A stretch of DNA of 42,777 nt, taken from a virus. Each line of letters begins with the position of its first letter. Positions within the stretch are counted from its first letter, which is position 1. The notes beneath the pieces were generated by a model. That model had not been told where the DNA came from. It did no database searches and worked only from the letters and a program-made list of their open reading frames with translations. The stretch is taken from positions 1 to 42,777 of IMG/VR virus record IMGVR_UViG_3300020183_002723; one strand, written 5' to 3'. The position numbers were made by a program, and so were the translations under genes. Below, one piece after another: positions 19,755 through 42,777 of this stretch.

Positions 19755-19755
19755 A

Positions 19756-20817: not shown

Positions 20818-20820
20818 ATT

Positions 20821-21748: not shown

Positions 21749-22466
21749 CGTATTTTTCTAAAATTTTACCAATTAATGGGTTTCTAACATTTTTAGCGTC
21801 CCTAAAATCGTAAACCCCAATATCTGAAACATTTTTAAATCTTTGTAGTGCGTCATAAAGACCAGACTGTTTCTTATCTTTATATCGATCCGTTTGTTCT
21901 AAATCACCAGATATAAAAAACTTACTATTAAAACCAATTCTTGTCAATAGTAGTTTCATTTGGTTTGGTGTTGAATTTTGAGCTTCCTCAAATATTAGAA
22001 TAGAATTATCGATATTCATACCTCTCATGTAAGCTAAAGCAAAGACCTCAATTATTTCAGCTTCCTTTAATTTTTCTCTAGCTTCTTTACCTATTATTTT
22101 GTTTAATAGATAATACGATGGGAAAATATATGGGTCTAGTTTTTCCTCTAAATTACCTGGTAACGATCCAAGTTTTTCTTCAGCTTCCACAGCTGGTCTA
22201 ACGATGATAATCTTTTCATATGAATTATCTGGATCCATAAGTAGGTCAACAGCTGCTTTCATTGAGATGTAACTCTTACCAACACCAGCTGGTCCAGAAC
22301 AAACCGTTATTTGGTTATCCTTTAATATGTTGTAATATTCTCCCTGGTTTGGTGACAAAAATTTATTTTTTTGTCTTTTTTTTATAACTGAATTGATGAA
22401 TTCCTTTCTTGAGAAAGGTTTAACCTCATCGTTTGCTGTTTGTGTATTTTTTTTCCTACTTGTCAT
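21729..22466 (-). CDS. phoH: PhoH-like P-loop ATPase
   Basis: The 245-residue protein carries a PhoH domain: Walker A GPAGVGKS (58-65), the conserved IIIVRPAVEAEEKLGSLPGN (86-105), Walker B ILIFEEAQNSTPNQMKLLLT (156-175) and sensor ISGDLEQTDR (185-194). The family usually has DEAQN in Walker B; here it is EEAQN, a conservative but notable change. PhoH-like proteins are common in large phages and are linked to RNA metabolism and nucleotide-dependent stress functions, but the phage role is unsettled. It is in the non-structural operon, directly before the HAD-like gene. Confidence 0.92.
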   Translation of the reverse strand: MTSRKKNTQTANDEVKPFSRKEFINSVIKKRQKNKFLSPNQGEYYNILKDNQITVCSGPAGVGKSYISMKAAVDLLMDPDNSYEKIIIVRPAVEAEEKLGSLPGNLEEKLDPYIFPSYYLLNKIIGKEAREKLKEAEIIEVFALAYMRGMNIDNSILIFEEAQNSTPNQMKLLLTRIGFNSKFFISGDLEQTDRYKDKKQSGLYDALQRFKNVSDIGVYDFRDAKNVRNPLIGKILEKYDDENRN

Positions 22467-22508
22467 ATAATGAATAATAACTTATTTTTCCATTATATCA
22501 AGTTTTTA

Positions 22509-23063
22509 TTATAAATCTAAGTGAATATATTTACCCTTACTTGATTTTGGTGTTTTCCAATCATCACCAAACCTATCAACCAAATACTCCTCGATAGGAT
22601 CTAAAAATGGTAACATACCATATTTAGTTGGTAATTCTTTCACACCAAAATTAGGTTTAACAATGAAACCTTTTTTTTGATGTACATAACCGTATTCCGA
22701 CACTGTAACTAATTTATCTTCTAAAATATCATCATAGTAGTAATATATGTCAAAAATACAACCATTTGTATCAATATAAGCTGTTTGTATTGGTCTTCTT
22801 CTCCATTCCATGGTTCGAATAAGTTTAAAACCATCTAATACAACGTGTGATTGACCTATCTTGGACCTAACACCAATATCGATATCGGTATCACTTGGTA
22901 TAAAGTCACCGTCTCGATACAAACCAATAGCTGTACCAGCTGAAATCCACCAGGAACAATTTAACTGTGATTTAGCCTTACTTAAAGTATCGTTAACATT
23001 TTTTATTGACGATAATTTTTTTTCACTAAACCAAGAATGTGTCTTAACAATTAAATCTTTCAT
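22509..23063 (-). CDS. LicD-like nucleotidyltransferase-fold phosphotransferase
   Basis: The 184-residue protein has the LicD/fukutin pattern: SWWISAGTAIGLYRDGDFIP (about 37-56), then SDTDIDIGV (57-65), the metal-binding D-x-D of the nucleotidyltransferase fold. LicD proteins move a phospho-alcohol such as phosphocholine from a CDP-linked donor onto a glycan. FDIYYYYDD (about 103-111) supplies the next acidic strand. The neighbours are a methyltransferase and a putative kinase-nucleotidyltransferase fusion, which could make such a donor. The start overlaps the methyltransferase stop by 4 bases. Confidence 0.85.
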   Translation of the reverse strand: MKDLIVKTHSWFSEKKLSSIKNVNDTLSKAKSQLNCSWWISAGTAIGLYRDGDFIPSDTDIDIGVRSKIGQSHVVLDGFKLIRTMEWRRRPIQTAYIDTNGCIFDIYYYYDDILEDKLVTVSEYGYVHQKKGFIVKPNFGVKELPTKYGMLPFLDPIEEYLVDRFGDDWKTPKSSKGKYIHLDL

Positions 23064-23659
23064 TTTTTACAAATAAATGAAATTTGTTTAGTTCCAAAAT
23101 CACTTTCAATCTCTTCCGGATATATTTTATTAACTTCAATTATTTTAAAATGTTTTTCGATAATCCTAAACATTGTAGGTATTGTTCTGTAAATTGAACT
23201 ATAATTTGAGTTTAGTTGTTCCGAAAAGGTATCGACAAGTATGTCTTGTGTCTCCATTGAACATGGTGACTTTATATAAATTAAGTCGGACTGAATTCTA
23301 CTTAGATTATCGTGAATTATATCTTCATCAAATAAAAACGGAATAACACCGGAAAATACAGTAACGTCTGTTTTTGGTAAATCCACCGGATTGTAACAAT
23401 CGTAATAACCCGTGATAGCTGGTATGTTCACCATCATTTTTTCAGCGATATCAAAAGCGTAAAATGTTTCAATGTTTGTTAATTCTTTTAAACATTTAAT
23501 TAAAGCTCCGTCACCACAACCTAAATCTAATAAACTACCTTTATCTTTAATCTTAGGTATTAAGTAATTTAACTCGTGTAAACGTCTATCTTTTATTGTT
23601 CCATAGTTTGGGTATTGTTCTTGGTTCACCCAAAATTTTCTAGCTGTGTCTTTTCCCAT
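23060..23659 (-). CDS. SAM-dependent methyltransferase
   Basis: The 199-residue class I methyltransferase has motif I GSLLDLGCGDGALIKCL (41-57), a motif II-like TFYAFDIAEKMM (about 64-75) and TDVTVFSGVIPFLFDEDII (about 95-113) at the motif IV position. LHELNYLIPKIKDKG precedes motif I. The substrate is unknown; the setting among LicD, nucleotidyltransferase and glycosyltransferase genes suggests methylation of a sugar or small alcohol rather than DNA, and no DNA methyltransferase target motif (such as DPPY) is seen. It overlaps the LicD gene by 4 bases. Confidence 0.85.
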   Translation of the reverse strand: MGKDTARKFWVNQEQYPNYGTIKDRRLHELNYLIPKIKDKGSLLDLGCGDGALIKCLKELTNIETFYAFDIAEKMMVNIPAITGYYDCYNPVDLPKTDVTVFSGVIPFLFDEDIIHDNLSRIQSDLIYIKSPCSMETQDILVDTFSEQLNSNYSSIYRTIPTMFRIIEKHFKIIEVNKIYPEEIESDFGTKQISFICKK

Positions 23660-23660
23660 A

Positions 23661-24497
23661 TTATCTCATTTTTTTAGATTCTAATATACCACTTCTCGGT
23701 ATAAATTTACATTTAACATTATTTATTTTACACCATTCGAGTACTTCTTCATTTCCAGATAACAATAATTTACCAAAAGGGTCTGATTTTTGTTCGGTTA
23801 ATTTACCACTAAATTTTACAACCCTTACACCAATATTTTCTATTTCGGAAACAATCTCATCTTGTGTGTACTTTGAATTTGGTGGTACATCGTTGGTTAC
23901 AACTACAGTTAAATTATAATCCTTTTTTAATTTTAAAATAGTTGTTGCGTGACCAAAGTGTGGAGGGTTAAATTTACCAACAAAATAAGCTTCAGGTTTC
24001 ATCATATTTATTTGTTTTTGTATATATGACCTGGTTTCGTCAATCTCATTTAAATATTTTTTATTATGATCAATCTCCTCATTTATTGTACTATCATAAA
24101 CCAAATGACTACAATCCCTTTTTTCACCAATTTTTAATGTGGACAGATCAGTAGGTATGTCATCCTTAGTAAAAAAAAACTTATGTCGTGTTGTCCTTGG
24201 TTTTAATAGTTCACATCTATTTAAAATATCATACTTTGTCAATCCAATACCAGTACTTATTCTCTCGTCAAGGTAGTCTACCCACAATACCGGGATATTC
24301 AGATACCCATTTTTATAAAAAAATACATATCTATGACTACCATCCAAAATTGTCCCACTATTAATATCGGCGATTATTGGTTTATTTACCACACCGTTAA
24401 TCATTGATTCTAAATTTGACAGGTGGTGTTTAAATACTAATTCTAACGGGTTTAGTCTGTTAATATCCACAATCTCATATATTGGGTATTTTTTCAT
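23661..24497 (-). CDS. Fusion: ParB/SerK-like domain plus cytidylyltransferase-like domain
   Basis: The 278-residue protein has two domains. Residues about 1-130 resemble the ParB/Srx-fold small-molecule kinases of the SerK/SbnI type: KPIIADINSGTILDGSHRYV (39-58), NIPVLWVDYLDERI (67-80) and LLKPRTTRHKFFF (97-109), where LDG-x-HRY and the K-x-TRH motif are shared with serine kinases. Residues about 168-278 are an HxGH nucleotidyltransferase: AYFVGKFNPPHFGHATTILK with HFGH at 180-183, and a C-terminal SGILESKKMR like the usual S-S-T-x-I-R. It could phosphorylate a small alcohol or amino acid and then activate it as a nucleotide diphosphate derivative, but this is inference. It overlaps the next glycosyltransferase gene by 4 bases. 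Confidence 0.8.
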   Translation of the reverse strand: MKKYPIYEIVDINRLNPLELVFKHHLSNLESMINGVVNKPIIADINSGTILDGSHRYVFFYKNGYLNIPVLWVDYLDERISTGIGLTKYDILNRCELLKPRTTRHKFFFTKDDIPTDLSTLKIGEKRDCSHLVYDSTINEEIDHNKKYLNEIDETRSYIQKQINMMKPEAYFVGKFNPPHFGHATTILKLKKDYNLTVVVTNDVPPNSKYTQDEIVSEIENIGVRVVKFSGKLTEQKSDPFGKLLLSGNEEVLEWCKINNVKCKFIPRSGILESKKMR

Positions 24498-26005
24498 ATT
24501 AAAATAAATTTATCTTTTATTTTATTCATATTTTCTTTAATCACCGGAAGTAGATTATTTAAATAATCGTATTTTAATTTTTCCAAATTTTCCGGATCAT
24601 CGTTTCTGGTTTGGGACTCATAATGGTAAGCTACACAATCTGAACAAGTGTAATTCTTTAAACCCATGGATAGAGTTTTAATATTTAGCTCAACATCCTC
24701 GAAACAAGAAATATATTCTTGGTTAAACATACCAGATTTAATAAATAGTTCTTTTCTAATCATAAGTAATCCACCGGTATTTCCAAAATTTTCAACAATA
24801 CCAGTACGGTAATTATAATAATTTTTTAAATTGTGGTGTCCTACCTGTATTGAATTATTTGTTCTTAATAACCCAACAAACACGCCGTCGTGTTGTATCG
24901 TGTTGTCCTCAAAATGTAATCTGGACCCAACCGTACCAGTTAAAAGTTTGGTATTATAAACATTTAACATGCCACCAATTACATCATTTAATACCTTAAT
25001 GTCGTTGTTACAGAATAACAAAAATTCATAATCATCATTAATATGATTTACTACAACGTCATTATTTATTTTAGCGAAATTATAATAATCATATTCTATT
25101 AGTTTTATATTACCAATGGGTAATACGTTTTCTATAATTAATGATTTCTCAAGATCATTAGATCCGGTGTCAGCGATAAAAACATCAAACAATTCTTTGT
25201 CACAATTTTCATATAATGAAACAATACAACTTGTTAATAAGTCGACTTTACCTTTTGTTGGTATTATAACAGCTACTTTTTTTTGTTTTTTATTTTTTTT
25301 AAAATTTATTTCCGGAGTGTAAATGATTTCCGGTTTTAAATCTAATGGGAGTACATCACCCCATTTAGTTAAAAACTTTGACTTAGACTCAAAAAACTCT
25401 TGGTTTGGTTGACCCACAGATTGGTGGGTTATCTCAAATGAGGAAGTAACTCCAATCTTAACACCGTCCATAAAGTTTGGGATACAAAATAAATGGTCAT
25501 AAAAATGAAATTTACCTATCGTCTCATCAAAATTATGTTTTATTTTTGTTTTATCAAAAGACATAAATAAACCATCAATTGTCACTACTGGGATTATGAA
25601 TGGTAATTTTGGTGAATACTTACTTAAAAATTTTTTACCTCCCTCCGGATGGTGATATACCTGACCAACCATTGTTTGTGACATCCTCTCCCAATAAACA
25701 CCCGATTCTGGGAAATAACAAGATCCAGCTTTCCCAATGATACCAAATTCAGGGTTATTAGAAAAATCATTCAATAATTTTTTACCCCAATTCCTTTCGA
25801 GTTTTATGTCATTGTGACAACAAACTACAATGTCATAAACTGATATTGTAATTCCTGAATTATAGATTTCAGACAGTGAATATTGATTATTGTTTTCATA
25901 TTCCAATATTTGAACATCAATTAGCCCAACTGTATCAAGTAAGTGTTGTTTAAATTTAGAGTTGTATTCCGAATCCTTGTGGGTCGAATAAATAATCGTT
26001 ATCAT
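24494..26005 (-). CDS. Two-domain GT-A glycosyltransferase (GT2-like tandem)
   Basis: The 503-residue protein contains two GT-A modules. The first (about 1-235) starts MITIIYSTHKDSEYNSKFKQ, with a metal site-like VVCCHNDIKLERNWG (61-75) and FYDHLFCIP; it resembles StrF-type domains. The second (about 240-490) starts KKVAVIIPTKGKVDLLTSCI and has FLLFCNNDIKVL (about 330, NND for DxD), GNTGGLLMIRKELFIKSG and CFEDVELNIKTLSMGLK (E-D-V-E acceptor motif). Together it could act as a chain-building enzyme with two specificities. It overlaps the dUTPase gene by 4 bases. Confidence 0.87.
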   Translation of the reverse strand: MITIIYSTHKDSEYNSKFKQHLLDTVGLIDVQILEYENNNQYSLSEIYNSGITISVYDIVVCCHNDIKLERNWGKKLLNDFSNNPEFGIIGKAGSCYFPESGVYWERMSQTMVGQVYHHPEGGKKFLSKYSPKLPFIIPVVTIDGLFMSFDKTKIKHNFDETIGKFHFYDHLFCIPNFMDGVKIGVTSSFEITHQSVGQPNQEFFESKSKFLTKWGDVLPLDLKPEIIYTPEINFKKNKKQKKVAVIIPTKGKVDLLTSCIVSLYENCDKELFDVFIADTGSNDLEKSLIIENVLPIGNIKLIEYDYYNFAKINNDVVVNHINDDYEFLLFCNNDIKVLNDVIGGMLNVYNTKLLTGTVGSRLHFEDNTIQHDGVFVGLLRTNNSIQVGHHNLKNYYNYRTGIVENFGNTGGLLMIRKELFIKSGMFNQEYISCFEDVELNIKTLSMGLKNYTCSDCVAYHYESQTRNDDPENLEKLKYDYLNNLLPVIKENMNKIKDKFILI

Positions 26006-26598
26006 ATTCCAGTACTACCAAAACCTTTATCAGATCTATCTTTATCTTCTATATTATTAACCATATTTAGTTTAATCCATTTACCACAAACTACGGGGGA
26101 TAACACCCCTTGAGCTATTTTTTGACCTTTTTGTATTTTTATTTTTTCTTTTGTGGTGTTAAATACAATTACTTTTATTTCACCGGTATATCCTTGATCT
26201 ACGGTTCCTGGAGAATTTAATACCATTAAACCTTGTTTTAAAGCTAAACCACTTTTTGATCTAATTTGGATTTCATAACCTTCTGGAATGTCAAAGTGTA
26301 TTCCGGTTGGAATTAGTGTTCTGTCAAATGGGTCGATGTCGATTTCATCAGTTGAATGTAGGTCAAATCCTGAATCTGTTGGATAAGCGTATTTTGGATA
26401 TACCGAGTTTTGATTTGATACACTATAATTAACCGTTAATTTATTATTTGATTTCAACATCTCATCTTCTAGTTCTTTGATGTCGAATCCGTGACGTTCA
26501 ATTACATCGTTAACAACAAGGTTCTCAATCTCGTCGTTAAATAATCTTTGTAAATCATCAATTTCTTTTTTTAGATCATCTAAGTTATTATTTTCCAT
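26002..26598 (-). CDS. dut: dUTPase (deoxyuridine triphosphatase) with N-terminal extension
   Basis: Hydrolyses dUTP to dUMP, keeping uracil out of DNA and supplying dTMP precursor. All five trimeric dUTPase motifs are present: AYPTDSGFDLHS (71-82), IRSKSGLAL (112-120), LNSPGTVDQGYTGEI (128-142, with the catalytic Asp/Tyr), KGQKIAQGV (157-165... by count) and RSDKGFGSTG (188-197). The first 55 residues are an additional acidic coiled-coil segment (DDLKKEIDDLQRLFNDEIEN), unusual for this family; it may add oligomerisation or a partner contact. It sits between an exonuclease and a glycosyltransferase. Confidence 0.95.
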   Translation of the reverse strand: MENNNLDDLKKEIDDLQRLFNDEIENLVVNDVIERHGFDIKELEDEMLKSNNKLTVNYSVSNQNSVYPKYAYPTDSGFDLHSTDEIDIDPFDRTLIPTGIHFDIPEGYEIQIRSKSGLALKQGLMVLNSPGTVDQGYTGEIKVIVFNTTKEKIKIQKGQKIAQGVLSPVVCGKWIKLNMVNNIEDKDRSDKGFGSTGI

Positions 26599-26599
26599 T

Positions 26600-27319
26600 T
26601 TACTGTAATGATTTTAATTTTTTTATTGTATCCACAAGTACAACAACATCTCTTTCACAATATTCCGATATCTCTTTCAACATACCCTTATCCCAATAAC
26701 ATTCATGTACCTTATCACCAGTAACTTCACCACCTTTTGGTGTTGGTATATCTAGTGAGGTACACATTAAGTCTAGTGATCCAATAGCGGTATAAGCTCC
26801 GTACTGCCAAATTTCACGAGTATCAAGTGCTTTAACCTCCCATGGTTTTGTGTCAAAAGAAGGTAGTATTGATGGTGGATTTAAACCATTAATTATCATT
26901 CTTTTAGCCATCATCGGTATATCAAAATTCTTGAGGTTGTGACCACAAAGATAGAAGTCTAATTTACCACATCTATCTAATAATTTTTGAACGTCAAGTA
27001 AAAGTTGTTTTTCGTCATCATTTGAAAATGTCTGTTGTTTAATTTCACCTTTTTCTGTGACAAAAGCCATTGATACACAGACTATTTTAGCGAACTCTGG
27101 CACCAAAGCTGTTCTAGTCGAGAATACAATATTTTTACGTTCGTCTAAGTTTTTACCGGCAATAGCGTCTTCCGGGAATCTTTTTAAAAACCAATCAAAA
27201 TACTTATCAAATTGACCAGCTAGTCTTGGATTCATGTCAAGACACGAATCATAATCTTTAGTTATTCCAACAGTTTCGATGTCTAGGAATAAAATTTTTG
27301 TAATTGGAATTGTTATCAT
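26600..27319 (-). CDS. DEDDy 3'-5' exonuclease (PolB-like)
   Basis: The 239-residue protein has the DEDD exonuclease residues: FLDIETVG (Asp13, Glu15), CGHNLKNFDIPMMAKRM (Asp133) and SEYCERDVVVLVDT (Tyr220, Asp224, the Y-x3-D pattern of the DEDDy class). It resembles the predicted PolB-like 3'-5' exonucleases common in Bacteroidetes and phages. There is no polymerase domain attached. Likely roles are DNA repair, proofreading in trans, or degradation of host or foreign DNA. It is in the non-structural operon next to dUTPase, consistent with replication or nucleotide functions. Confidence 0.9.
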   Translation of the reverse strand: MITIPITKILFLDIETVGITKDYDSCLDMNPRLAGQFDKYFDWFLKRFPEDAIAGKNLDERKNIVFSTRTALVPEFAKIVCVSMAFVTEKGEIKQQTFSNDDEKQLLLDVQKLLDRCGKLDFYLCGHNLKNFDIPMMAKRMIINGLNPPSILPSFDTKPWEVKALDTREIWQYGAYTAIGSLDLMCTSLDIPTPKGGEVTGDKVHECYWDKGMLKEISEYCERDVVVLVDTIKKLKSLQ

Positions 27320-27321
27320 TT

Positions 27322-28536
27322 TTATTTAATTAAGGATTTGTAAAATTCAGCTCTTTCTTTCGTAACATTATTTAAATCATATCGATCTTTAACGGTTTCG
27401 TATAGTCTTTCACCCAAATCAGTTATCATGTTTGGGTTATTCACTAGTTTTTTAATGTACTTGGACCAATCTCCGTGATTTCGATGTTCATCGACTAATA
27501 AAGCGTTACCATCAGTAAACTCACCATTTTTTAAAGCGTGTTTTAAATCGATCGTGTATGGACCAACATTTGAAGCTATTAAAGCTTTTTTATAGAATCC
27601 GGCCTCAATAACTTTTAATTGTGATTTCATACGATTAAATACGTGATTTTTTATTGGTGCCAATGATATATCAAATTTAGAATAATTTCTAGCGTATGTG
27701 TTTACCGGTCTAGTCCAAACTCTAACATAATTTTCTTTCTCGACTCCAGGATAATCGTTCTCGGTAAATGTATTTAAATAATCACGATATTTTGGTGTAA
27801 TGATTTTATAATTATCGGTAAATATTTCCTCATATTTAACCCAAACAGTTTCTTCTGGCCTTATTGGTCTTTGGGTTTTTTGACCGGTTTGTTTGTTAAT
27901 TTCAGTCACCTGTCCTCTGGTATCAAAACCACACACGAAAAATTGTAATTTATCCTGTACGGTACTTAATTTAGATACCATCCCATCAAGTAACTTTAAA
28001 TCGTGTAAATGTGATGACCCACCTAACCATCCAACTCTAATTTTATCTGATGGTTGTGTTGTTTCTGTAAATTGTGGGTCTTTTGGGTCTACAGCATTTG
28101 GGAAAACGACAACGTTTTTGTTTATTTTTCTGATTTCGTCAGCGAAAATTTCTGTGGTTGTAATCACATATGAGGAAACCTTTAAATTGTTTCTTATTTT
28201 TTCGTGTATTTTATTTTGTAGTATTAACTGGTGTATTGGGTGTTCTGGTGTAGGTAACCAATAATCATCAATATCAGCCACAACAACAATCCCCATTGAT
28301 TTTAATTTTTCAATTATTGTTACACAATTATCATAATCCTGTCCAATATTTCGATGAAAATGAACAATACTATAATTTTTCCAGTAACTAATATCATCAA
28401 TTCTTGGGTTGTAGTCTATGTCAACGTGAAAATCGTTAGGGTACATATTTTGTAGTTTAACATGTGGGTCAACACTTCTAAATTTACCAACACCAGACTG
28501 ATCTGATGGTAATACTAATACTTTAATTTTTTCCAT
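27322..28536 (-). CDS. GT-B family glycosyltransferase (GT4-like), first gene of non-structural operon
   Basis: I take the ATG at 28536; the longer frame to 28611 adds 25 AT-rich residues (MGFFIFIKVDIFCFF...) that reach into the terminator region. The 404-residue protein starts MEKIKVLVLPSDQSGVGKFR, a GT-B N-terminal strand and Gly loop, then has VVADIDDYWLPTPEHPIHQL, VITTTEIFADEIRK, VVFPNAVDPKDPQF and IRVGWLGGSSHLHDLKLLDG, a pattern seen in phage and bacterial GT4-like proteins. The C-terminal donor site is KSQLKVIEAGFYKKALIASN. The sugar and acceptor are unknown. It probably opens the operon running down to the late sigma; a clear promoter was not found, only a weak TACTTTTA (28554-28561) with poor -33 spacing. 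Confidence 0.87.
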   Translation of the reverse strand: MEKIKVLVLPSDQSGVGKFRSVDPHVKLQNMYPNDFHVDIDYNPRIDDISYWKNYSIVHFHRNIGQDYDNCVTIIEKLKSMGIVVVADIDDYWLPTPEHPIHQLILQNKIHEKIRNNLKVSSYVITTTEIFADEIRKINKNVVVFPNAVDPKDPQFTETTQPSDKIRVGWLGGSSHLHDLKLLDGMVSKLSTVQDKLQFFVCGFDTRGQVTEINKQTGQKTQRPIRPEETVWVKYEEIFTDNYKIITPKYRDYLNTFTENDYPGVEKENYVRVWTRPVNTYARNYSKFDISLAPIKNHVFNRMKSQLKVIEAGFYKKALIASNVGPYTIDLKHALKNGEFTDGNALLVDEHRNHGDWSKYIKKLVNNPNMITDLGERLYETVKDRYDLNNVTKERAEFYKSLIK

Positions 28537-28594
28537 AATATTTTTTATTCTTGTAAAAGTATACCAAAAAAAACAAAAAATATCAACCTTTATA

Positions 28595-28628
28595 AAAATA
28601 AAAAACCCCAATCGAGATGATTGAGGTT
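28595..28628 (-). terminator. Rho-independent terminator of the 31.4-28.6 kb operon
   Basis: On the minus strand AACCTCAATC (28628-28619), loop ATCTC, GATTGGGGTT (28613-28604), with one G-T pair, followed by TTTTTATTTTTA. It lies 25 bases after the last gene of the small-protein operon and just upstream of the next operon's first gene. Confidence 0.88.
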
Positions 28629-33812: not shown

Positions 33813-35459
33813 ATGGCAATTATAATTCAACAAGCTGGTGTAGCCGGATCAACATTAAGAGACCTTAATAGTAATAGTACTTTAGGTTCTTCCAGTACCG
33901 TTTCAGGTGGTCAATCAAACCGAGCTGATTTCAATCACGCTACCGTATCGGGTGGTTTTTCTAATACCGCTAATAGTAACTGTTCGATCGTTGGTGGTGG
34001 AGCTTGTAATAAAATATTTGGTACTTCAGCCAATTTAAATACAATTGGTGGTGGTTGGAGAAACACGGTAGCTGGTACGGGAACGTTTTGTTCCGTTGTT
34101 GGTGGTGGTGCTTGTAATACTACCTTATCACCTGAGTCAACTATTGTTGGTGGTCTTGGTAATAAAATTTTAGACGGGAATACTGATTCATCAATACTTG
34201 GTGGTCGAGAAAACCTAATATTAGGACCTGGATCATTTCATGGTGTAATTGGTGGTGGTAGAAGGAATACCGCTTATGGTTTGTCAGCAACAATCGGTGG
34301 TGGGTCATTTAATACATCTTGTTCCAATGAATCAACAATTGGTGGTGGATGTATGAATACAATAACAAAATTTACAACTAATCAATGTCAAACATTTGGT
34401 AACTTTATTGGTGGTGGTAGTTGTAACACTTTAAACGCTTCAGTAAACTGCTACTCAGTTATTGGTGGTGGTTTTAAATCATACGTAAATGGGTGTATTT
34501 CATTTGTAGGTGGCGGTCAGTGCAACTCAGTGTTATCAAACTACTCAACAATTGTGGGTGGGTGTGGTAATACAGCTGGATCAACCGGAGCTTCATCATT
34601 TATTGGTGGTGGTTTATCAAATACTGTTAATGCTAGAGCTAACACAATTGGTGGTGGGTGTAAAAATACAACAACAAACTTATACTCAGTCATTGGTGGT
34701 GGATTTGGAAATACGGTCACTGGTGATTATTCTGGGGTTCTTGGTGGATGTAGTAATACTGTAACTGGTAGTCACTCATTTGCGGTATCTGTGAATTCAA
34801 AAGTTACAGGTAATTGTACTGTAGCTTTAGGTGGATCAGCTATTAACGCTTCGGTTAGTAATTCAGTATACGTACCAAAATTAAATATTCGAGATTTACC
34901 TAACAATGTACCAGTTTACGGTTTGGGTATTGACTCTAACGGATTTGTTGTTAAATCATTATCACCCGGACTTAACTGTGTTGTTGATGGTATTTTAACT
35001 GAGGGTTTACCAACATCTCTAAACCCACAGGTACCTTCAATATCAACATCATTATTGACAGGTGATTTACAGTTGATAAACTCAAGTGTCTTGTATGATG
35101 ATTATTTAAATTCATTCGACCCATCAACTGGTGTTTGGACTTGTCCGGCCACTGGTAGGTGGAACATCGGATATTTTGCTCACATGACCGGACCAGATCC
35201 GGTGAACGGATGGTTATCACTAAATGGTATGATATACGCTGGAATTGTAAATTTCACAACAAACGAAGTGTACGCTGCTAGTACCTATTACCCAACAAAC
35301 GTACAATTATACGCTGATATAAATGGGGGTCAATGGGGTGTTCAATTAACAGCTGGTGATCAGTTATGTGTTAGAATAACAAACACAACATTACTTACTT
35401 ACACACCTGTAATTGGTGGAACTGACTACATAAGATTTTCAGCACAAAAAATAGGATAA
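33813..35459 (+). CDS. Adhesive fibre 1: YadA-like beta-roll repeats with jelly-roll-like tip
   Basis: The 548-residue protein has about 18 imperfect repeats of 14-20 residues (about 25-340) with consensus S-x-I-[VG]-G-G-x-x-N-T, for example STIGGGCMNTITKF and SVIGGGFGNTVTGDYS. They are like the left-handed beta-roll heads of trimeric autotransporter adhesins (YadA, Hia); SHSFAVSVNSKVTGNCTVAL at the end of the array is closest to the YadA head motif. A transition (about 345-385, VYVPKLNIRDLPNNVPVYGL) leads to a C-terminal domain (about 395-548) with WTCPATGRWNIGYFAHMTGP and WLSLNGMIYAGIVNF, which resembles a C1q/TNF-like jelly roll, a usual fibre tip. It probably trimerises and binds the host surface. 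Repeats are rich in Ser/Thr/Asn, possible glycosylation sites. Confidence 0.88.
   Translation: MAIIIQQAGVAGSTLRDLNSNSTLGSSSTVSGGQSNRADFNHATVSGGFSNTANSNCSIVGGGACNKIFGTSANLNTIGGGWRNTVAGTGTFCSVVGGGACNTTLSPESTIVGGLGNKILDGNTDSSILGGRENLILGPGSFHGVIGGGRRNTAYGLSATIGGGSFNTSCSNESTIGGGCMNTITKFTTNQCQTFGNFIGGGSCNTLNASVNCYSVIGGGFKSYVNGCISFVGGGQCNSVLSNYSTIVGGCGNTAGSTGASSFIGGGLSNTVNARANTIGGGCKNTTTNLYSVIGGGFGNTVTGDYSGVLGGCSNTVTGSHSFAVSVNSKVTGNCTVALGGSAINASVSNSVYVPKLNIRDLPNNVPVYGLGIDSNGFVVKSLSPGLNCVVDGILTEGLPTSLNPQVPSISTSLLTGDLQLINSSVLYDDYLNSFDPSTGVWTCPATGRWNIGYFAHMTGPDPVNGWLSLNGMIYAGIVNFTTNEVYAASTYYPTNVQLYADINGGQWGVQLTAGDQLCVRITNTTLLTYTPVIGGTDYIRFSAQKIG
33880..34830 (+). repeat. Degenerate repeat array of fibre 1 (about 45-60 bp units)
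   Basis: The repeat units share the core ATTGGTGGTGG plus an AATAC/AACAC block, spaced by 45-60 bases and differing mainly in third positions and loop length. A second such array occurs in fibre 2, on the same strand with the protease gene between. Confidence 0.85.
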
Positions 35460-35484
35460 TAAAAAATAAGAAAAAATAAAAACT

Positions 35485-37008
35485 ATGAATTTAGATTCAA
35501 TAAAGGGGAGGATTACCGAGATATTTAATTCAACACCGTCAGACGTACATGTTGGGTTTGGTTATAGAATTAAAGATGGTAAGCTGACCAACGAGGTTGG
35601 TTTTACATACCTGGTCTCCAAAAAAAGACCGATTCATGAATTGTCCGAAAATGAGATTTTTCCGGAAAAAATATTACATGATGGTGTTGACTACCCAACA
35701 GACGTTGTTGAGGTTCCTAACGTTCAAGCTTTTGGGACGTACTGTTATGGTAATGGTACTAACGAACCACCTAACTCATGTTTTAGTTTTACAGACCCAT
35801 TAACACCGCCAGCAAATCGGAATTATACAAGACCAATTAAGGGTGGAGTCGGTATATTCCCAACTACAGCTGTCAACGCGGGTACTCTTGGGTTTGTTGC
35901 GGTTGATATTGCAACACAAGCACTTGTTGGTGTAACGAATAATCACGTAGTTATATCGTCATCAAATGACGCATTTTTTACTGGAGAAAGAAATTTAAAT
36001 AGTCCAGCTATCTTTAATGAATTATTCCCAATAAATGAAATACAAAATCCAGCTACGTGTGATTCAGGACCTTTTATACCAGCTTATAAGATTGGTAGAA
36101 CTTTAAGATATCAACCTATGTACAGGTCAACAGCTATTTCGGCCATATTTCCGGTTGGTCACCCACAAGCTGGTCAACCATACACATATTATATTACCGG
36201 ACCTAATGGTATTAACAGAGTTGATGGAGCACTTATTTCGTTAAAACAAACTGACGCGGCTGGTCAACCGATTATTGATATTAATGAGTCTTGGAAACAG
36301 GTTGGATTACCACAAATTACAACACCCCCACCATTCGCGACATTATCAGATTTAAATAGTATGATTTTTGGTGGAACACCACCTACTAATATCCCTTTTA
36401 CGAATACAGAAATAATTTCCGCTGGTAGAACTACTGGTCCAAAACAAGGTCCGTGTTCATTACGATTACATTTATTAACGTGTACTGTGGGTGTTGCTGG
36501 TTATAATTTACAAGGTACATCAAACGTTGTTGTGTTTGAGGATCAGATGTCAGTAGTAAGGGTTAACAGTGATAATGATTTATGTATATTACCAGCTTAC
36601 GGTGGTGATTCCGGATCAGCGGTTTTCGCTGAATTTGGTGGTGTATGGAAGATAATAGGTGTATTGTTTGCTGGTGGTATTTTTGATATCAGTAACCCAA
36701 CGGTACCGATTAACCCAATATCACCAACTGATCCTTTACGACCAATAGCTACATATTCACCAACATGTAATGGTAATATTTACGCAGCTGGTACATCATA
36801 CTTCACATTTGTTAATAAAATAACAAATGTTGAGACGGCTTTGGGTATACAAGCTTGGGATGGTACGGCTAAACCGTTTGTTGACCCAAATTCATTAGAG
36901 TATGTGTCGGTTTGTGGTGGTAATTTTACAAAAACATTAACTTGTAGTGGTGACACATATTGGCAGGTTGGTTTAACTAATAGTTTAATATCACCATGTA
37001 ATCCATAA
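35485..37008 (+). CDS. Trypsin-like serine protease (S1 family) between fibre genes
   Basis: The 507-residue protein has a full chymotrypsin-type triad: VGVTNNHVVIS (His154), NGINRVDGALISL (Asp247) and AYGGDSGSAVF (Ser376, the GDSG motif). The approach segment SAGRTTGPKQG (312-322) also fits S1 proteases. The N-terminal 80 residues (HVGFGYRIKDGKLTNEVGFT; YLVSKKRPIHELSENEIFPE) match the pro-region seen in many bacterial secreted S1 proteases. There is no signal peptide, so in a phage it should act in the cytoplasm or on the virion. The C-terminal 100 residues carry several Cys and end in a small beta domain. It lies 25 bases from each fibre gene, in one operon, so cleaving fibres, host surface proteins or other virion parts is plausible. 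Confidence 0.88.
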   Translation: MNLDSIKGRITEIFNSTPSDVHVGFGYRIKDGKLTNEVGFTYLVSKKRPIHELSENEIFPEKILHDGVDYPTDVVEVPNVQAFGTYCYGNGTNEPPNSCFSFTDPLTPPANRNYTRPIKGGVGIFPTTAVNAGTLGFVAVDIATQALVGVTNNHVVISSSNDAFFTGERNLNSPAIFNELFPINEIQNPATCDSGPFIPAYKIGRTLRYQPMYRSTAISAIFPVGHPQAGQPYTYYITGPNGINRVDGALISLKQTDAAGQPIIDINESWKQVGLPQITTPPPFATLSDLNSMIFGGTPPTNIPFTNTEIISAGRTTGPKQGPCSLRLHLLTCTVGVAGYNLQGTSNVVVFEDQMSVVRVNSDNDLCILPAYGGDSGSAVFAEFGGVWKIIGVLFAGGIFDISNPTVPINPISPTDPLRPIATYSPTCNGNIYAAGTSYFTFVNKITNVETALGIQAWDGTAKPFVDPNSLEYVSVCGGNFTKTLTCSGDTYWQVGLTNSLISPCNP

Positions 37009-37032
37009 AATAAAAAAATAAAATAGATATAA

Positions 37033-39132
37033 ATGTCAGAAATAATAATAACAGATCCGATTGGTGGTAGTACCACTACGTTAAGATGTAAAGGTTTAAA
37101 TTCAGCTGGATCATTATACTCAACTGTGTTGGGTGGTATGAATAATACGGTAGTTGGTGACTCATCAACGATTGTTGGTGGTAGATGTAATTTATCAACT
37201 GGTGGATACTCATTTGTTTCTGGTGGTCAAAATAATCAATCATATTCCGATAATACAATAATTGGTGGTGGTGTTTGTAATATATTAAACGAAAATTCCT
37301 CTGGATCCATAATTGGTGGTGGTACATACAATCAATTATCTGGAACCAACTCAATAATTAACGGTGGTTCACAAAATACATTATTTGGTTGTCAATCACT
37401 AGTTGGTGGGGTACAAAATTATATTACTGGAAATACATCAACAATAAGTAATGGATTTTTAAATACAATATCTGGAAATAATTCAGTAATTGGTGGGGGG
37501 TCTTGTAATTCCGTGATTTCAGACAACTCGATAATTGTTGGTGGTCTAAATAATCTATTAACTGATGAGTCTTCCGTAATTGTTGGAGGATCATCAAATT
37601 TTTCAAATTCTAAATATAGTGTTATTTTGAATGGTTATGGGAATAGAACTTCTGGTGATATGTCATCCATAGTTAATGGTCGTGAGAACACATTATCAGG
37701 TGAATACTCATTACTGGGTGGTGGATTAACAAATAACTTAACCGGTAATTATTCAGTTATTGTTGGTGGTGTAAATAACAATAATGGGTCAACTCAATCT
37801 GTAATAGGTGGGGGATCAAATAACAATGTATCTGGGGATGGATCAGTCATCACTGGTGGTTTAAATAATACGTCTACATTAGAGTATACATCAATAAATG
37901 GTGGTAGATTTAACACTTCAGTAGGTGTGGGGTCTTCTATTGGTGGTGGTTTATATAATACTGTTATTGGATCAAACTCCTTTTCAAATGGGTATAATAA
38001 TGTGGTTTCTGGGGAATCGTCTTACGTATTGTCAAAAAATTCAATCTTAACAGCTAATAACTCAGCAATAATTGGTGGGACGGGTATAATTGGTAATACT
38101 GATAACACTCTTTACGTCGGTAATCTAAATTTATTCAACCCTAAAGAATTAATAAATTCAACATTTTTAACACCAAATACAAATCTACAACCACTTGGTA
38201 TTGATTCCGAGGGATTTGTAGGTCTTTTTAGTTTTAGTAATACAGATACGGTAACTACTGGAGCGACATATAATAACACCACTGGTCAGTTAACATTAGA
38301 GAATAGTAATGGTTATAACATATATGTTAGTGGTTTTAACACTTCAGATTGTTGTATAACTGGTGGTACATATTCAGGTAGAACCGGGGATATCATATTA
38401 AACCCAAATGGTCCAACACCAATCACAATAACTGGAATTACAAAAGTTGGTGGTGAGAGTGTTGTAATTGGTGATTACTCATCAGTAGGGTCTGGTAAAA
38501 ATAATACAATTTACGGTGAAAATTCTTTTATAGGTGGAGGACGATTTAATGTTGTTTCTGGAAATACATCAACTATATTAGGGGGTAATAGAAGTACTGT
38601 CTATGGCAACACATCTGGGATTTTAGCCGGGTCAAATAATTATTTGTCTGGTCAAACCTCAACAATAATAGGGGGTAGTGACAATATTTTAATTGGGTCC
38701 AACTCATCAATTATTGGTGGATCGGATAATACGGTATTAGGTAGTGATATTATCACAATAAATACTAACAATATCACAGCGACAACGTCAAATGTTGTCT
38801 ACTTGGGTGAAACTAATTTTACAAACTCGGTAAACTATAAGACGGTACAGTTAGATTCGTCAGCTGATCCTGTATTGTCAGATGAGGTTAATTACGTCTT
38901 TTATTTATCAACCGGACTAGGTGGTACAATAACATTACCAACAGCTAAGGACGGTAGAACCGTTTCTTTGATTCGGGTTGGGAATACTAATTCGGCTTTG
39001 GTTATAGGTCAAGGTGGAGCAAAAATTAATGGGGTTTCGATAGCACAAAATTTACCAACCACACTTTATACCGAGACTAAATTTGTTAGTAATGGTTCTG
39101 ATTGGTACGCTAATAGTTCAACACCACTATAA
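37033..39132 (+). CDS. Adhesive fibre 2: long YadA-like beta-roll repeat protein
   Basis: The 699-residue protein carries two repeat arrays. The first (about 25-350) has some 20 repeats such as STISNGFLNTISGNNSVIGG and SVITGGLNNTSTLEYTSING; a spacer (about 352-470, with NTDNTLYVGNLNLFNPKELI) separates it from a second array (about 470-580, SFIGGGRFNVVSGNTSTILG). The tip (about 590-699) ends in GLGGTITLPTAKDGRTVSLI and VSNGSDWYANSSTPL, a short beta domain seen at the ends of phage fibres. The spacer parallels that of fibre 1 (PLGIDSEGFV versus GLGIDSNGFV), so the two genes are paralogues. Ser/Thr at each repeat turn gives dense potential O-glycosylation sites. A terminator follows. Confidence 0.88.
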   Translation: MSEIIITDPIGGSTTTLRCKGLNSAGSLYSTVLGGMNNTVVGDSSTIVGGRCNLSTGGYSFVSGGQNNQSYSDNTIIGGGVCNILNENSSGSIIGGGTYNQLSGTNSIINGGSQNTLFGCQSLVGGVQNYITGNTSTISNGFLNTISGNNSVIGGGSCNSVISDNSIIVGGLNNLLTDESSVIVGGSSNFSNSKYSVILNGYGNRTSGDMSSIVNGRENTLSGEYSLLGGGLTNNLTGNYSVIVGGVNNNNGSTQSVIGGGSNNNVSGDGSVITGGLNNTSTLEYTSINGGRFNTSVGVGSSIGGGLYNTVIGSNSFSNGYNNVVSGESSYVLSKNSILTANNSAIIGGTGIIGNTDNTLYVGNLNLFNPKELINSTFLTPNTNLQPLGIDSEGFVGLFSFSNTDTVTTGATYNNTTGQLTLENSNGYNIYVSGFNTSDCCITGGTYSGRTGDIILNPNGPTPITITGITKVGGESVVIGDYSSVGSGKNNTIYGENSFIGGGRFNVVSGNTSTILGGNRSTVYGNTSGILAGSNNYLSGQTSTIIGGSDNILIGSNSSIIGGSDNTVLGSDIITINTNNITATTSNVVYLGETNFTNSVNYKTVQLDSSADPVLSDEVNYVFYLSTGLGGTITLPTAKDGRTVSLIRVGNTNSALVIGQGGAKINGVSIAQNLPTTLYTETKFVSNGSDWYANSSTPL
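37110..38100 (+). repeat. Degenerate repeat array A of fibre 2
   Basis: Repeats of 36-60 bases built on ATTGGTGGTGG-like and TCTGG[AT]AATAA-like blocks encode IxGGxxNT(I/V)SG units. Many units are similar enough to allow recombination with each other and with the fibre 1 array. Confidence 0.8.
38450..38770 (+). repeat. Degenerate repeat array B of fibre 2
   Basis: A second block of the same units follows after a 350-base non-repetitive spacer. It encodes about seven repeats, for example STIIGGSDNILIGSNSSIIG. Confidence 0.8.
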
Positions 39133-39154
39133 AAAAAATAATTTTAATTATATG

Positions 39155-39190
39155 AACCCCCACCTAAAATGGGGGTTTTTTATTTTATTA
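39155..39190 (+). terminator. Rho-independent terminator after fibre 2
   Basis: AACCCCCA (39155-39162) pairs with TGGGGGTT (39170-39177) around a 7-base loop, and TTTTTATTTTATT follows. It separates the fibre operon from the glycosyltransferase genes. Confidence 0.93.
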
Positions 39191-39224
39191 ATGACATTTC
39201 ACCAATATTGTTTATTATTAAATT

Positions 39225-39968
39225 ATGTTTGTGTCAGTTTGTAATAAAGAATATTTGATTGGTTTTGAGGTAATGTTAAAATCATTGGTGGAAAATAATC
39301 CCAGGGTTGTTAAGGAGAATATACCATTTATGGTAATAAGTAATGACTTAACATCAGATGATTTAATAACCTCTAAAAAAATACATAATAACATTTTACT
39401 AAAAAATTATGACGAATCAAAATATAATCAAATTAATGAGTTAAAGACAGATCAAACCGGATTTGGTGATTACACAAAGTATGAAATATTTTCAATAGAC
39501 GGTGTTGATAAAATAATATTTTTAGATTCAGATATTGTTATTCTTGGAAATATTGATTACTTAATTGATTATAGTGATGACTTTGGGTGTGTTCGTGAAT
39601 TATATATTGACCAATACAATACCGGAGTTATGGTTATTAATAAAAAATACCTATCAGAAAAAATAACAAATGATTTAATTGGTTTGACCTTGTTGTATGG
39701 TATTACAGAACATTTCGACCAAGACATAATAAACTTTTACTTTGATGATGTAATTAAACCAATTCCAATAGAGTATAACTACTTAAAAACATATTCAAAA
39801 CAAGTTTTTATAAACACTGGTTTACCAAAGTATATTAAGGTATTACATTTTATTGTTAAAAAACCTTGGCAGAATAAACCTTTGGTGTCTTTGGAAGAGG
39901 GTACAATATGGCAGGAAAAATACTGGTTTGATTATTACTCTAAAATTTTAAAACTTAAGAATGGTTAA
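39225..39968 (+). CDS. GT8-family glycosyltransferase
   Basis: The 247-residue protein has GT8 features: MFVSVCNKEYLIGFEVMLKS at the N-terminus, the metal-binding DSD in KIIFLDSDIVILGNIDYL (101-103), YNTGVMVINKKYL (131-143), EHFDQDIIN (DQD at 165-167) and the C-terminal His of VLHFIVKKPW (208), which completes the metal site. Such enzymes transfer hexoses from UDP donors. There is no membrane segment, so it acts in the cytoplasm. It is the first of three sugar-transfer genes in one + strand unit after the fibre terminator; it lacks the TATTTAT box, and its start overlaps nothing upstream. Its 3' end overlaps the next gene by 8 bases. Confidence 0.9.
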   Translation: MFVSVCNKEYLIGFEVMLKSLVENNPRVVKENIPFMVISNDLTSDDLITSKKIHNNILLKNYDESKYNQINELKTDQTGFGDYTKYEIFSIDGVDKIIFLDSDIVILGNIDYLIDYSDDFGCVRELYIDQYNTGVMVINKKYLSEKITNDLIGLTLLYGITEHFDQDIINFYFDDVIKPIPIEYNYLKTYSKQVFINTGLPKYIKVLHFIVKKPWQNKPLVSLEEGTIWQEKYWFDYYSKILKLKNG

Positions 39969-40872
39969 ACGACATTACGAAGAACATGAATTATTAAAGT
40001 ATAAGGAATTAAATCCTGACATTAAAAATTTTAATGATAGTACTTTGTTACTTCATTTTGATTCCTTTTGTTTGGGGGATACGATATGTTTTTCATCCTT
40101 TATTGATCCGTTTATTCAACACCACAACCCAAAAAAAATATACATATCAACATTTTTCCCACATTTGTTTAAATCTAAGGACGTTGGGAGGTATGAGTTT
40201 ATAAAAGCTGATGACCCAACCTATATTGAGGTTGATAAGTTGTTGGACGTTGGGTATGATAAAAAAAACTTAAACCACACTTTAAATGGTATGATGTATG
40301 CCACTAAAGATACCATGATGTTACCACAGGACACAAAACCAGGAAAATGTCCGATTATCCCATATAAAGTTAACAAAAAAAATAATAAAATTTCAATAGC
40401 ACCTGAATCACTAAAAAAAATAGCTAGATGGGACTATGAAAATGGTTGGCAAGAAATTGTAAATAGGTTAACCTCATCCGGGTATGACATTTCAAACGTA
40501 TCATACGAAAATACGTTAAATTTAGAAGGTGTGACAAATTATCACGGTTTTGATGATATCAGTGTGTCCTTGAGAGAAATACTAGAGTCGAGAATTTTTA
40601 TTGGGTTATCATCTGGTTTAGCTTGGTTGGCTTGGGCGTACGATATTCCGGTTGTTATGATTTCTAATTTCACGAAAAAACAAAATGAATTCGATTGTTT
40701 TCGGGTATCAAATCCAAAAGTATGTAATGGGTGTTTTAATATGTTTATGAACATCCAAACACACTGTCCAATTTTTTTAAATACAGATAGGGAAAATGAG
40801 TGTCATTTAAATATAACACCAGACATGGTTTGGGAAAAAATAGAATTAGCTTTGTCATTTACAAATGAATAA
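39961..40872 (+). CDS. Autotransporter-type O-heptosyltransferase (BAHT/TibC-like)
   Basis: The 303-residue protein matches the bacterial autotransporter heptosyltransferase family (TibC, Aah), which attaches heptose to Ser of adhesin repeats. Evidence: HFDSFCLGDTICFSSFIDPF (32-51) for the N-terminal donor/acceptor face, SIAPESLKKIARWDYENGWQ (145-164), FIGLSSGLAWLAWAYDIPVV (213-232) followed by MISNFTKKQNEFDCFRVSNP, and the iron-finger: VCNGC (Cys255, Cys258), HCP (Cys269) and NEC (Cys281), the four-Cys arrangement that binds Fe(III) in TibC. The C-terminal ITPDMVWEKIE also fits. It directly follows a GT8 gene and precedes a GT9-like gene, downstream of repetitive fibre genes. I am confident of the family; the substrate is inferred. 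Confidence 0.88.
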   Translation: MVKRHYEEHELLKYKELNPDIKNFNDSTLLLHFDSFCLGDTICFSSFIDPFIQHHNPKKIYISTFFPHLFKSKDVGRYEFIKADDPTYIEVDKLLDVGYDKKNLNHTLNGMMYATKDTMMLPQDTKPGKCPIIPYKVNKKNNKISIAPESLKKIARWDYENGWQEIVNRLTSSGYDISNVSYENTLNLEGVTNYHGFDDISVSLREILESRIFIGLSSGLAWLAWAYDIPVVMISNFTKKQNEFDCFRVSNPKVCNGCFNMFMNIQTHCPIFLNTDRENECHLNITPDMVWEKIELALSFTNE

Positions 40873-40892
40873 AAACAATTATATAATTTAAT

Positions 40893-41777
40893 ATGGAAAA
40901 AAAATATAGTCTATTTCACATTGAAGGTGGTTTGGGTAAACACGTTCTAGCTACCGCGGTAGCACAGTGTATTAAAAATAATTACCCGGATAGAGAACTA
41001 ATAATTGTCTGCGCTTACCCAGAAATATTTTTAAATTTAGAATTTGTTGATAGGGTTTATAGATTGGGTATGACACCATATTTTTATGATGATTTTATTA
41101 GAAATAAAAATACAATGGTTTTTAAACATGAACCGTATTTTACTGACGATCACATCCACAAAAGATTACATTTATTGTTAAATTGGTGTAAATTACACAA
41201 TTTAACATATAATAATGAACAACCAACTTTAAAATTTAATGTTAGACAATTACAAATAGCTCAAGGTAAGTGGTTAAGAGAAAAACCCGTAATGGTAATT
41301 CAAACAAACGGAGGACCATTACAGGATCAACCAAACACATATTCTTGGACTAGGGATATACCATATAATTTAGCTCAAAATATTGTCGATAAATTTTCAG
41401 AAAAATACCATATAATTCAAATATGTAGACACGAACAAAACTCTTTACGTAATGTTGAGGTTGTTCATGAACAAATGTCGAACATGGAGTTATTTTCAAT
41501 TTTGTTAGCTTCAGAAAAAAGATTATTAATTGATTCATCACTACAACACGCTGCGGCAGCTCTTCGTCTTGAATCGACCGTACTTTGGGTCGGTACGTCA
41601 CCAAATGTGTTTGGGTACAATTTACATAAAAATATTATAGCTACGTTACCAAATTCAGTTAAATTACCAGATAGTTACTTATTTGATTATGACTTTAATG
41701 GTACAACACATGAGTGTCCAATGTTTGATAATGATATATTTGATTTAAACCTCATCGTGGAGTCCTTACAAAATTAA
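40893..41777 (+). CDS. GT9-like glycosyltransferase (heptosyltransferase fold)
   Basis: The 294-residue protein starts LFHIEGGLGKHVLATAVAQC (7-26), the GT9 'G-G-x-G' loop with a following helix, and has LLIDSSLQHAAAALRLESTV then LWVGTSPNVFGYN (about 212-244), matching the GT9 C-terminal donor motif 'D-S-x-x-x-H-x-A-A-A-L-x-x-x-x-x-x-L-x-G-x-x-P'. It lacks the four-Cys finger of its neighbour. It would use an ADP-heptose-like or related donor. It begins 20 bases after the heptosyltransferase gene, in the same unit, and may extend the sugar that enzyme adds. Confidence 0.82.
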   Translation: MEKKYSLFHIEGGLGKHVLATAVAQCIKNNYPDRELIIVCAYPEIFLNLEFVDRVYRLGMTPYFYDDFIRNKNTMVFKHEPYFTDDHIHKRLHLLLNWCKLHNLTYNNEQPTLKFNVRQLQIAQGKWLREKPVMVIQTNGGPLQDQPNTYSWTRDIPYNLAQNIVDKFSEKYHIIQICRHEQNSLRNVEVVHEQMSNMELFSILLASEKRLLIDSSLQHAAAALRLESTVLWVGTSPNVFGYNLHKNIIATLPNSVKLPDSYLFDYDFNGTTHECPMFDNDIFDLNLIVESLQN

Positions 41778-41826: not shown

Positions 41827-42777
41827 ATGAGTCAAAGTATAACCATAGATAGTATAAATTTTGACGGTGAATTAGCTACCGTTGTTTTTAAACCGGATAA
41901 TGATAATATTGTCATTAATCTGGGTCAAGTAACACTACCTTTCATTTTTTTCCCCGAATTATTAATACCACCAAGACAAGTTTATGGTACATACACCATA
42001 TTGGTAGAAAACGGGGATTGTCCAAATATTTTAAACGTACAAAGACCAACACCAACACCAACACCAACGGTTAGTCCCACAAGAACCCCGGTTCCGACAC
42101 CTACGTCCACTCCGACACCAACCCCAACATTTAACCCATGTAAGGTTCCAACCCCAACCCCAACAAACACCTCAACACCAACGGTCACACCGACAAATAC
42201 ACCTACACCAACTGAGACTTGTACAAATCCTTGTGGTTGTCCTAGTCCAACAAACACCCCAACACCAACAAGAACCCCATCTCCAACTCCGACAATTAAT
42301 CCTTGTGTTACACCCACAAATACACCTACAAATACACCTACACCATCTATTACACCATCTATTACACCAACACCATCTATTACACCAACACACACACCGA
42401 CACCAACAATGACACCAACAATGACACCAACAAAAACAGCTGGACTAACACCGACACCGACTGGTACCCCAACACCGACACCGACACCGACACCAACCTC
42501 AGCGTTTGTAGCTTATTTATTTATTGAACCGATATCTGGTGGTACACTAATGGGTCAGTGGATGTTTGATGGTGGATTTAATTTCTTTGGGTTTAGTAAT
42601 AATACACAACCTACACAAAACCAAACAATATTTAATCAAGAATTAAATAGGTATGTTAACTTTAGTGGTTGGACTTCCGGAGAATTCCCATATTTGATAA
42701 CACAAAACGTACCACAAACAAGTGGTGGTGTCGATTCATTTGGCAATAATATTGTAGCTTATAATTTCAAAACAACA
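41827..42777 (+). CDS. Structural protein with very long Pro/Thr linker (3' end outside window)
   Basis: The frame is open to the last base, so only the first 317 codons are seen. Residues 1-72 form a small beta domain ([40 protein letters not shown]). Residues about 74-226 are a Pro-Thr-Asn linker of some 150 residues with few interruptions (Cys pairs in [13 protein letters not shown]). From about 227 ([37 protein letters not shown]) a beta-rich domain begins. The layout is that of a long extended stalk joining a virion anchor to an adhesive or decorating domain. Pro/Thr stalks are typical O-glycosylation targets, and three glycosyltransferase genes end only 49 bases upstream. No named family. 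Confidence 0.82.
42047..42504 (+). repeat. Pro-Thr coding low-complexity array
   Basis: About 150 codons are dominated by ACA/ACC/ACG/ACT and CCA/CCG/CCT triplets, with sub-repeats ACACCATCTATT (three copies near 42340-42383) and ACACCGACA. Third positions vary, so it is older or under protein-level selection, not pure slippage. It leaves spurious Cys/Trp- and Gly/Val-rich frames on the other strand. Confidence 0.9.

Follow-up and report, generated by a model that had tools for sequence, protein, structure and literature searches.

A short TibC-like enzyme encoded beside beta-roll fibre genes in a T4-like phage, and its possible role in fibre glycosylation

In a freshwater T4-like phage, the genes for two long Ser/Thr-rich beta-roll proteins are followed in a row by genes for a GT8 glycosyltransferase, a short TibC-like enzyme, and a GT9-like glycosyltransferase (Table 1). 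An earlier note on this DNA had described the same arrangement, and all of its open reading frames are present where it placed them. Our best reading, which we hold at about even confidence, is that the cassette is a module for O-glycosylation of the virion's fibres, with a glycan that is often sulfated. The TibC-like enzyme probably works as a TibC-type transferase in its fold and general chemistry, to judge from its sequence and a structural model, but its sequence is not that of a standard BAHT.

The window, which is the whole stretch of DNA that we analysed, is a virus record of 42,777 bases with a G+C content of 32%. It has T4-type family matches for the major head, portal, and prohead protease genes, and the nearest capsids from isolates are those of Microcystis phage Mel-JY01 and of Flavobacterium phages (about 41-43% identity). 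Among the DNA-metabolism genes at 18948-28611 on the minus strand, the window also encodes several more glycosyltransferases, as well as a methyltransferase, a LicD-like protein, and a SerK-like/nucleotidyltransferase fusion; these are possibly a second glycan pathway.

Table 1. Features of the fibre and glycosyltransferase locus, with the sulfation genes of one relative (L007)
Feature	Position	Strand	Description
Fibre-like protein 1 (548 aa)	33813..35459	+	15-residue beta-roll repeats, then non-repetitive C-terminal domain; no TM-like segment
Protease-like protein between the fibre genes	35485..37008	+	GGDSGS motif; PHROG protease match 1.4e-11
Fibre-like protein 2 (699 aa)	37033..39132	+	UspA1/YadA-head-like beta-roll repeats, two blocks
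Intrinsic-terminator-like hairpin	39154..39178	+	between fibre 2 and GT8
GT8 glycosyltransferase	39225..39968	+	PF01501 3e-20; LDSD (DxD) motif intact
Short TibC/BAHT-like GT-B enzyme (303 aa)	39961..40872	+	TIGR04414; overlaps GT8 by 8 nt
GT9-like (GT-B) glycosyltransferase	40893..41777	+	phrog_8954; sulfotransferase partner in many phages
Pro-Thr-repeat protein	41827..42777	+	open at window end
Sulfotransferase, APS kinase, HxGH nucleotidyltransferase, DUF2061	L007:9822-11984		directly after glycosyltransferases

The TibC-like enzyme and its donor site

The short enzyme matches TIGR04414 (hepto_Aah_TibC) at 9.4e-32, and phmmer matches it to TibC itself (PDB 4rap) at 1e-16. Its score of 110 bits against TIGR04414 is below the curated cut-off of 200 for this equivalog family; its relatives score 120-127 bits. 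In Foldseek, an AlphaFold2 model of the enzyme (pLDDT 89) matches TibC (4rap) at 2.5e-19 with a TMq of 0.78, so the proposed likeness of fold is borne out. The next-best structural matches are WaaC/WaaF (8.6e-8), which is a point in favor of the main and serious rival to fibre glycosylation: the glycosyltransferases and the sulfotransferase could instead remodel the host envelope by altering the LPS core or the capsule, as a block to superinfection or as an aid to release. GT8 and GT9 families are also typical LPS-core enzymes. On the other side, TibC surpasses every other structural match by more than 10 orders of magnitude, and its characterised relatives modify protein. We think that envelope remodelling is probably not the explanation, although it is a real possibility, and we return to it below.

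In a maximum-likelihood tree, the enzyme and its relatives form a single monophyletic group (100/100), and the stem that leads to it has a length of 2.5 changes per site. This clade, made up of the window enzyme and 22 relatives (about 14 distinct), is separate from the other family members, and a scan of cellular genome contigs with clade-specific patterns found no cellular relative of these short enzymes. The earlier note had called the product a BAHT heptosyltransferase and expected it to cluster with the BAHTs. The TibC-like fold, the homology to TIGR04414 and TibC, and the four cysteines discussed below agree with this, but the score below the equivalog cut-off and the separate, long-stemmed clade do not.

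To compare residues, we aligned the window enzyme and its 22 relatives with 163 other homologues (80 cellular, 80 environmental viral, which are a sample among the matches listed, and 3 from phage records). The iron-finger cysteines are exactly as had been claimed: Cys255, Cys258, Cys269, and Cys281 align with Cys339, Cys342, Cys358, and Cys370 of TibC, which are iron ligands (PMC4358343). By this alignment, the four-Cys motif is kept in the window enzyme, in 22/22 relatives, and in 163/163 of the others, many of which are full-length viral proteins. It cannot be the hallmark of autotransporter-modifying enzymes that it was taken for, and we rejected it as proof of an autotransporter-type substrate. 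The catalytic Asp40 (Asp110 in TibC) and Trp222 (Trp305, a heptose contact in TibC) are also kept in the window enzyme and in all 22 relatives; they are conserved in all 163 others as well, but partly by selection, as the LGD and SGLxW motifs were among the scan patterns by which these homologues were gathered.

Other parts of the donor site have changed. In TibC, Lys230 binds the phosphate of the donor, and its replacement by alanine leaves little or no activity (PMC4358343). This residue is lysine in all 163 other homologues but Ala155 in the window enzyme and Ala or Ser across the clade. Thr226 is replaced by Leu151 (Leu or Ile in the clade), and the donor-binding Arg286 by Ser or Ala, although Arg286 varies among viral homologues too. 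A clade-invariant lysine, Lys152, aligns with TibC position 227, just three residues ahead of Lys230, and it may take over the role of the lost lysine in donor binding. As the donor-phosphate Lys and Thr of the BAHTs are replaced, the donor is perhaps not ADP-heptose. Furthermore, we found no GmhA or HldE-type (HldE-C) gene in 12 contigs from relatives (69 to 304 kb, perhaps incomplete). So heptose is not assured as the donor, and the host could supply the sugar donor.

The enzyme also lacks the N-terminal beta-barrel of TibC: its match to TIGR04414 begins at profile position 79, and just 39 residues precede the catalytic Asp, as compared to a median of about 140 in cellular homologues. Deletion of the barrel abolishes the activity of TibC (PMC4358343). 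The ring-contact residue Phe368, which is Phe or Tyr in nearly all of the other homologues, is Asn or Ser in the clade, while the thumb (Phe265/Val266) aligns unreliably. Without the barrel and the Phe368 contact, a 12-mer ring like that of TibC is unlikely. With the barrel, Lys230, Thr226, and Phe368 all gone, the idea of a standard BAHT is not supported.

Could it nevertheless be a true ADP-heptose BAHT that hyper-heptosylates the beta-roll repeats, as TibC and AAH do with their substrates? This would be a narrower form of our best reading and overlaps with it. The family, the GT-B fold, the iron finger, Asp110, and Trp305 are all shared with the TibC/AAH enzymes (TIGR04414; PDB 4rap and 4rb4), as is an AAH-like Ser at position 300. 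Also, in both cases the gene adjoins that of a repeat adhesin-like protein. Given the absent barrel, the unconserved donor residues, the lost ring contact, the low family score, and the missing GmhA/HldE-type genes, we consider a true BAHT unlikely. The phage gene further differs from those of TibC and AAH in its operon, which it shares with GT8, GT9, and, in many cases, sulfation genes.

The beta-roll proteins and the operon

Both beta-roll proteins have a 15-residue repeat, roughly G-G-x-x-N-T-x-x-G-x-x-S-T-I/V-x, with 29 GGxxN-type motifs in fibre 1 and 27 in fibre 2; Ser and Thr together make up 21.5% and 25.2% of their residues. The two are 39% identical (5.7e-24). Fibre 2 matches the UspA1 head in the PDB at 5e-16 and, in Pfam, LbR_Ice_bind (the beta-roll family of grass antifreeze proteins) at 2e-16; fibre 1 alone had no Pfam match above the cut-off. 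An AlphaFold model of fibre 2 shows the main repeat block as regular short strands, with a pLDDT of about 80-90 for the greater part of residues 50-320; elsewhere confidence is low (single-chain mean pLDDT 61), and a fold search with this single-chain model gave no useful match. The resemblance to YadA-type proteins that had been noticed earlier is supported by the sequence match to UspA1.

The 15-residue GGxxN repeats are shared with the trimeric autotransporter heads of UspA1 and YadA (PDB 3pr7). Unlike these, the proteins in the window are phage encoded and have non-repetitive C-terminal domains in place of an anchor. They have no YadA anchor-domain match in Pfam or NCBIfam and no TM-like segment, so they are not autotransporters; their N-termini also have no signal-like hydrophobic stretch. 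From the phage context, we infer that they are virion fibres. We found no match to them in annotated phage isolates, where low-complexity filtering may hide some.

The PDB relatives of the GT8 protein are glycogenin and Skp1-GalT, and its DxD motif is intact in the alignment. The GT9-like protein has no Pfam or NCBIfam match above the cut-off, but it matches phrog_8954 (1.5e-6) and has a GT9-type motif, DSxLQHAAAA. None of the transferases has TM-like segments. Most relatives have intergenic distances of -8, 14-20, 1-5, 3-5, and -4 nt from GT8 onward. The 8-nt overlap of GT8 with the TibC-like gene and the short gaps after it imply a single operon, and GT8, the TibC-like gene, and GT9 are translationally coupled.

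The terminator-like hairpin parts the fibre gene from the cassette in the window and in most relatives (similar hairpins stand at the same position in about two thirds of them), which counts against the fibre reading and in favor of envelope remodelling. An argument from late promoters for co-expression of fibres and cassette was dropped, as the T4-type late promoter TATAAATA occurs at chance level in the window. Another motif, [AG]TATTTAT, is enriched upstream of the window's genes (11 sense and 1 antisense, with 0.5 expected per strand). It lies just 5' of about 11 genes (e.g., at 535, 3011, 4489, and 10408), none of the sites is before the glycosyltransferase cassette, and it is possibly a phage-specific promoter; read as its reverse complement, the T4 late box is similar to it.

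T4-like phages are known for glucosylation of their DNA, so the transferases might instead glycosylate modified phage DNA. This seems very improbable to us, as the cassette stands among fibre genes and we know of no DNA-modifying members of the TibC-like, GT8, or sulfotransferase families.

Relatives, sulfation genes, and loci without the short enzyme

The order GT8, TibC-like gene, GT9 is kept in 22 loci from IMG/VR (about 14 distinct), with an extra gene between GT8 and the TibC-like gene in one of them (L006). By a crude motif search, all 22 have a beta-roll neighbor within 5 kb, far more often than the full-length viral BAHTs described below, and this favors the fibre reading; but these loci have a common ancestry and so cannot be counted as independent cases of synteny. 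In L021, L022, and L026, an upstream protein with a different repeat (NIALGxxSLxxNT) and a second sulfotransferase replace the beta-roll gene. Of the relatives, only the closest ones, L003-L005, keep the protease-like gene between the fibre genes (42%). Comparing the window to L005, the enzymes are 86-90% identical and the fibres 49-53%; this gives no hint of fine co-evolution between enzyme and substrate and counts against the fibre reading.

The operon extends into a sulfotransferase gene in most relatives, and many of them add APS kinase, HxGH nucleotidyltransferase, and DUF2061 genes after it; together these are an apparent phage PAPS/sulfation module. For example, L007 has matches to Sulfotransfer_3 (1.9e-20) and APS_kinase (1.4e-18). 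Sulfation genes likewise directly follow the glycosyltransferases in L012, L014, L016-L020, L024, L025, and L027, and a sulfotransferase is present in 11 of the 16 records searched. They were not found in the closest relatives (L002-L005, including a 160-kb contig) or in the window fragment. Where relatives have these genes, a homologue of the Pro-Thr-repeat protein is usually downstream of them. The cassette has no flippase or membrane transferase, only the DUF2061 protein with its one membrane segment, which argues against envelope remodelling; the other glycosyltransferase genes that are scattered in the window and its relatives argue for it.

Many viral contigs encode a GT9-like protein of this kind. 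Among 14 long, dereplicated GT9-like loci without a BAHT, 12 have beta-roll genes and 13 have a sulfotransferase. In another locus, L209, a Ser-rich repeat protein of a different kind has as neighbors a full-length BAHT, a GT8, a sulfotransferase, and a fusion of APS kinase with a nucleotidyltransferase. These loci lead us to interpret the cassette as one that decorates fibres, with sulfation as an option. If the envelope were the target, then nearness to fibre genes would reflect the clustering of receptor-interacting genes, yet the association persists even in these divergent GT9/sulfotransferase loci.

The same loci weaken the argument from an exact pair of enzyme and fibre. The order of fibre and then glycosyltransferases is conserved, as had been proposed, but the same fibres go with GT9 and sulfotransferase where there is no BAHT. 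Also, relatives have several beta-roll genes per genome, some away from the cassette (far from it in contig G009, which contains L026), and this is another point against the fibre reading. The Ser and Thr positions of the repeat are equally conserved in phages without a BAHT and do not mark a target of BAHT modification; we therefore rejected Ser/Thr-richness as a signature of it.

Full-length TibC-like genes (L108-L187 and L008-L010) occur widely, in environmental viruses as well as in huge phages, and many are fused to other transferase domains. We found at least 578 stretches with full-length viral BAHT candidates. Those of Mel-JY01 and of the huge phages LR756501 and LR756504 score 224-321 bits against TIGR04414, above the cut-off. 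Such proteins share the family and the iron finger with the window enzyme; unlike it, they keep Lys230 and the N-terminal domain, are often fused to transferases, and are rarely beside beta-roll proteins. Among the matches listed, 5 of the 80 full-length viral BAHTs sampled have a beta-roll neighbor within 5 kb, and 32 of 63 distinct ones have some other Ser/Thr-rich repetitive neighbor. So a BAHT-like gene on its own says little about the substrate. With the same crude motif, 26 of 80 cellular BAHT loci are beside repeat passengers, a point in favor of the fibre reading.

A possible route to sulfated fibres

If the cassette does modify fibres, then these soluble enzymes would act in the cytoplasm of the infected cell, before assembly. 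The TibC-like enzyme would add the first sugar, perhaps from a donor other than ADP-heptose, to the regularly spaced Ser and Thr of the beta-roll repeats. GT8 and the GT9-like enzyme would lengthen the chain, and the sulfotransferase, where present, would cap it using PAPS, with the APS kinase supplied by the phage. We can only speculate that the benefit would be protection from proteases, protection of adsorption, or tuned adhesion. The idea that the phage glycosylates its own fibres remains reasonable despite the weakened pair argument, and it is strengthened by the sulfotransferase/APS-kinase extension in relatives. More tentatively, and here we would sooner bet against than for, a group of aquatic T4-like phages would encode their own pathway for sulfated fibre O-glycans, which a barrel-less, TibC-derived enzyme with a changed donor site starts and which the GT8, the GT9-like enzyme, the sulfotransferase, and the APS kinase finish.

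Parts of this are already established. BAHT-adhesin pairs are known from bacteria (PMC4358343), and mycobacteriophages glycosylate their capsids and tail tubes with their own transferases, according to PMC12363180 and PMC12619734 (citing Freeman 2023). In Che8, Corndog, and Myrna, phage-encoded transferases decorate virion proteins, as we propose here; there the targets are the capsid and tail tube, not fibres with repeats, and the portions of PMC12363180 that we draw on mention no sulfation genes. Cyanophages S-SKS1, S-SCSM1, and S-SRM01 encode sulfotransferases with 27-29% identity, and AG-345-L05 has a GT9-like gene that is 55% identical and paired with a sulfotransferase, but tblastn against these records found no BAHT or GT8 of the cassette's kind. 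In AG-345-L05 (Kyanoviridae, marine cyanophage-type; L011:8705-12579), the GT9-like gene adjoins a carbamoyltransferase-like gene as well as the sulfotransferase. A literature search that covered few subscription journals found no paper on phage BAHTs or phage fibre sulfotransferases, and an operon of a short TibC-derived enzyme with GT8, GT9, and PAPS/sulfotransferase genes beside phage beta-roll fibres was not found in the literature searched.

If our reading is correct, then bacteriophages would have a virus-encoded route to glycoprotein fibres, often sulfated ones, and virion glycosylation would extend from the capsids and tail tubes of mycobacteriophages to adhesion fibres. The TibC-like enzymes would also gain one that is small and soluble and whose donor site differs. 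Finally, the presence of sulfotransferase and APS kinase genes in some environmental phages would have an explanation that can be tested.
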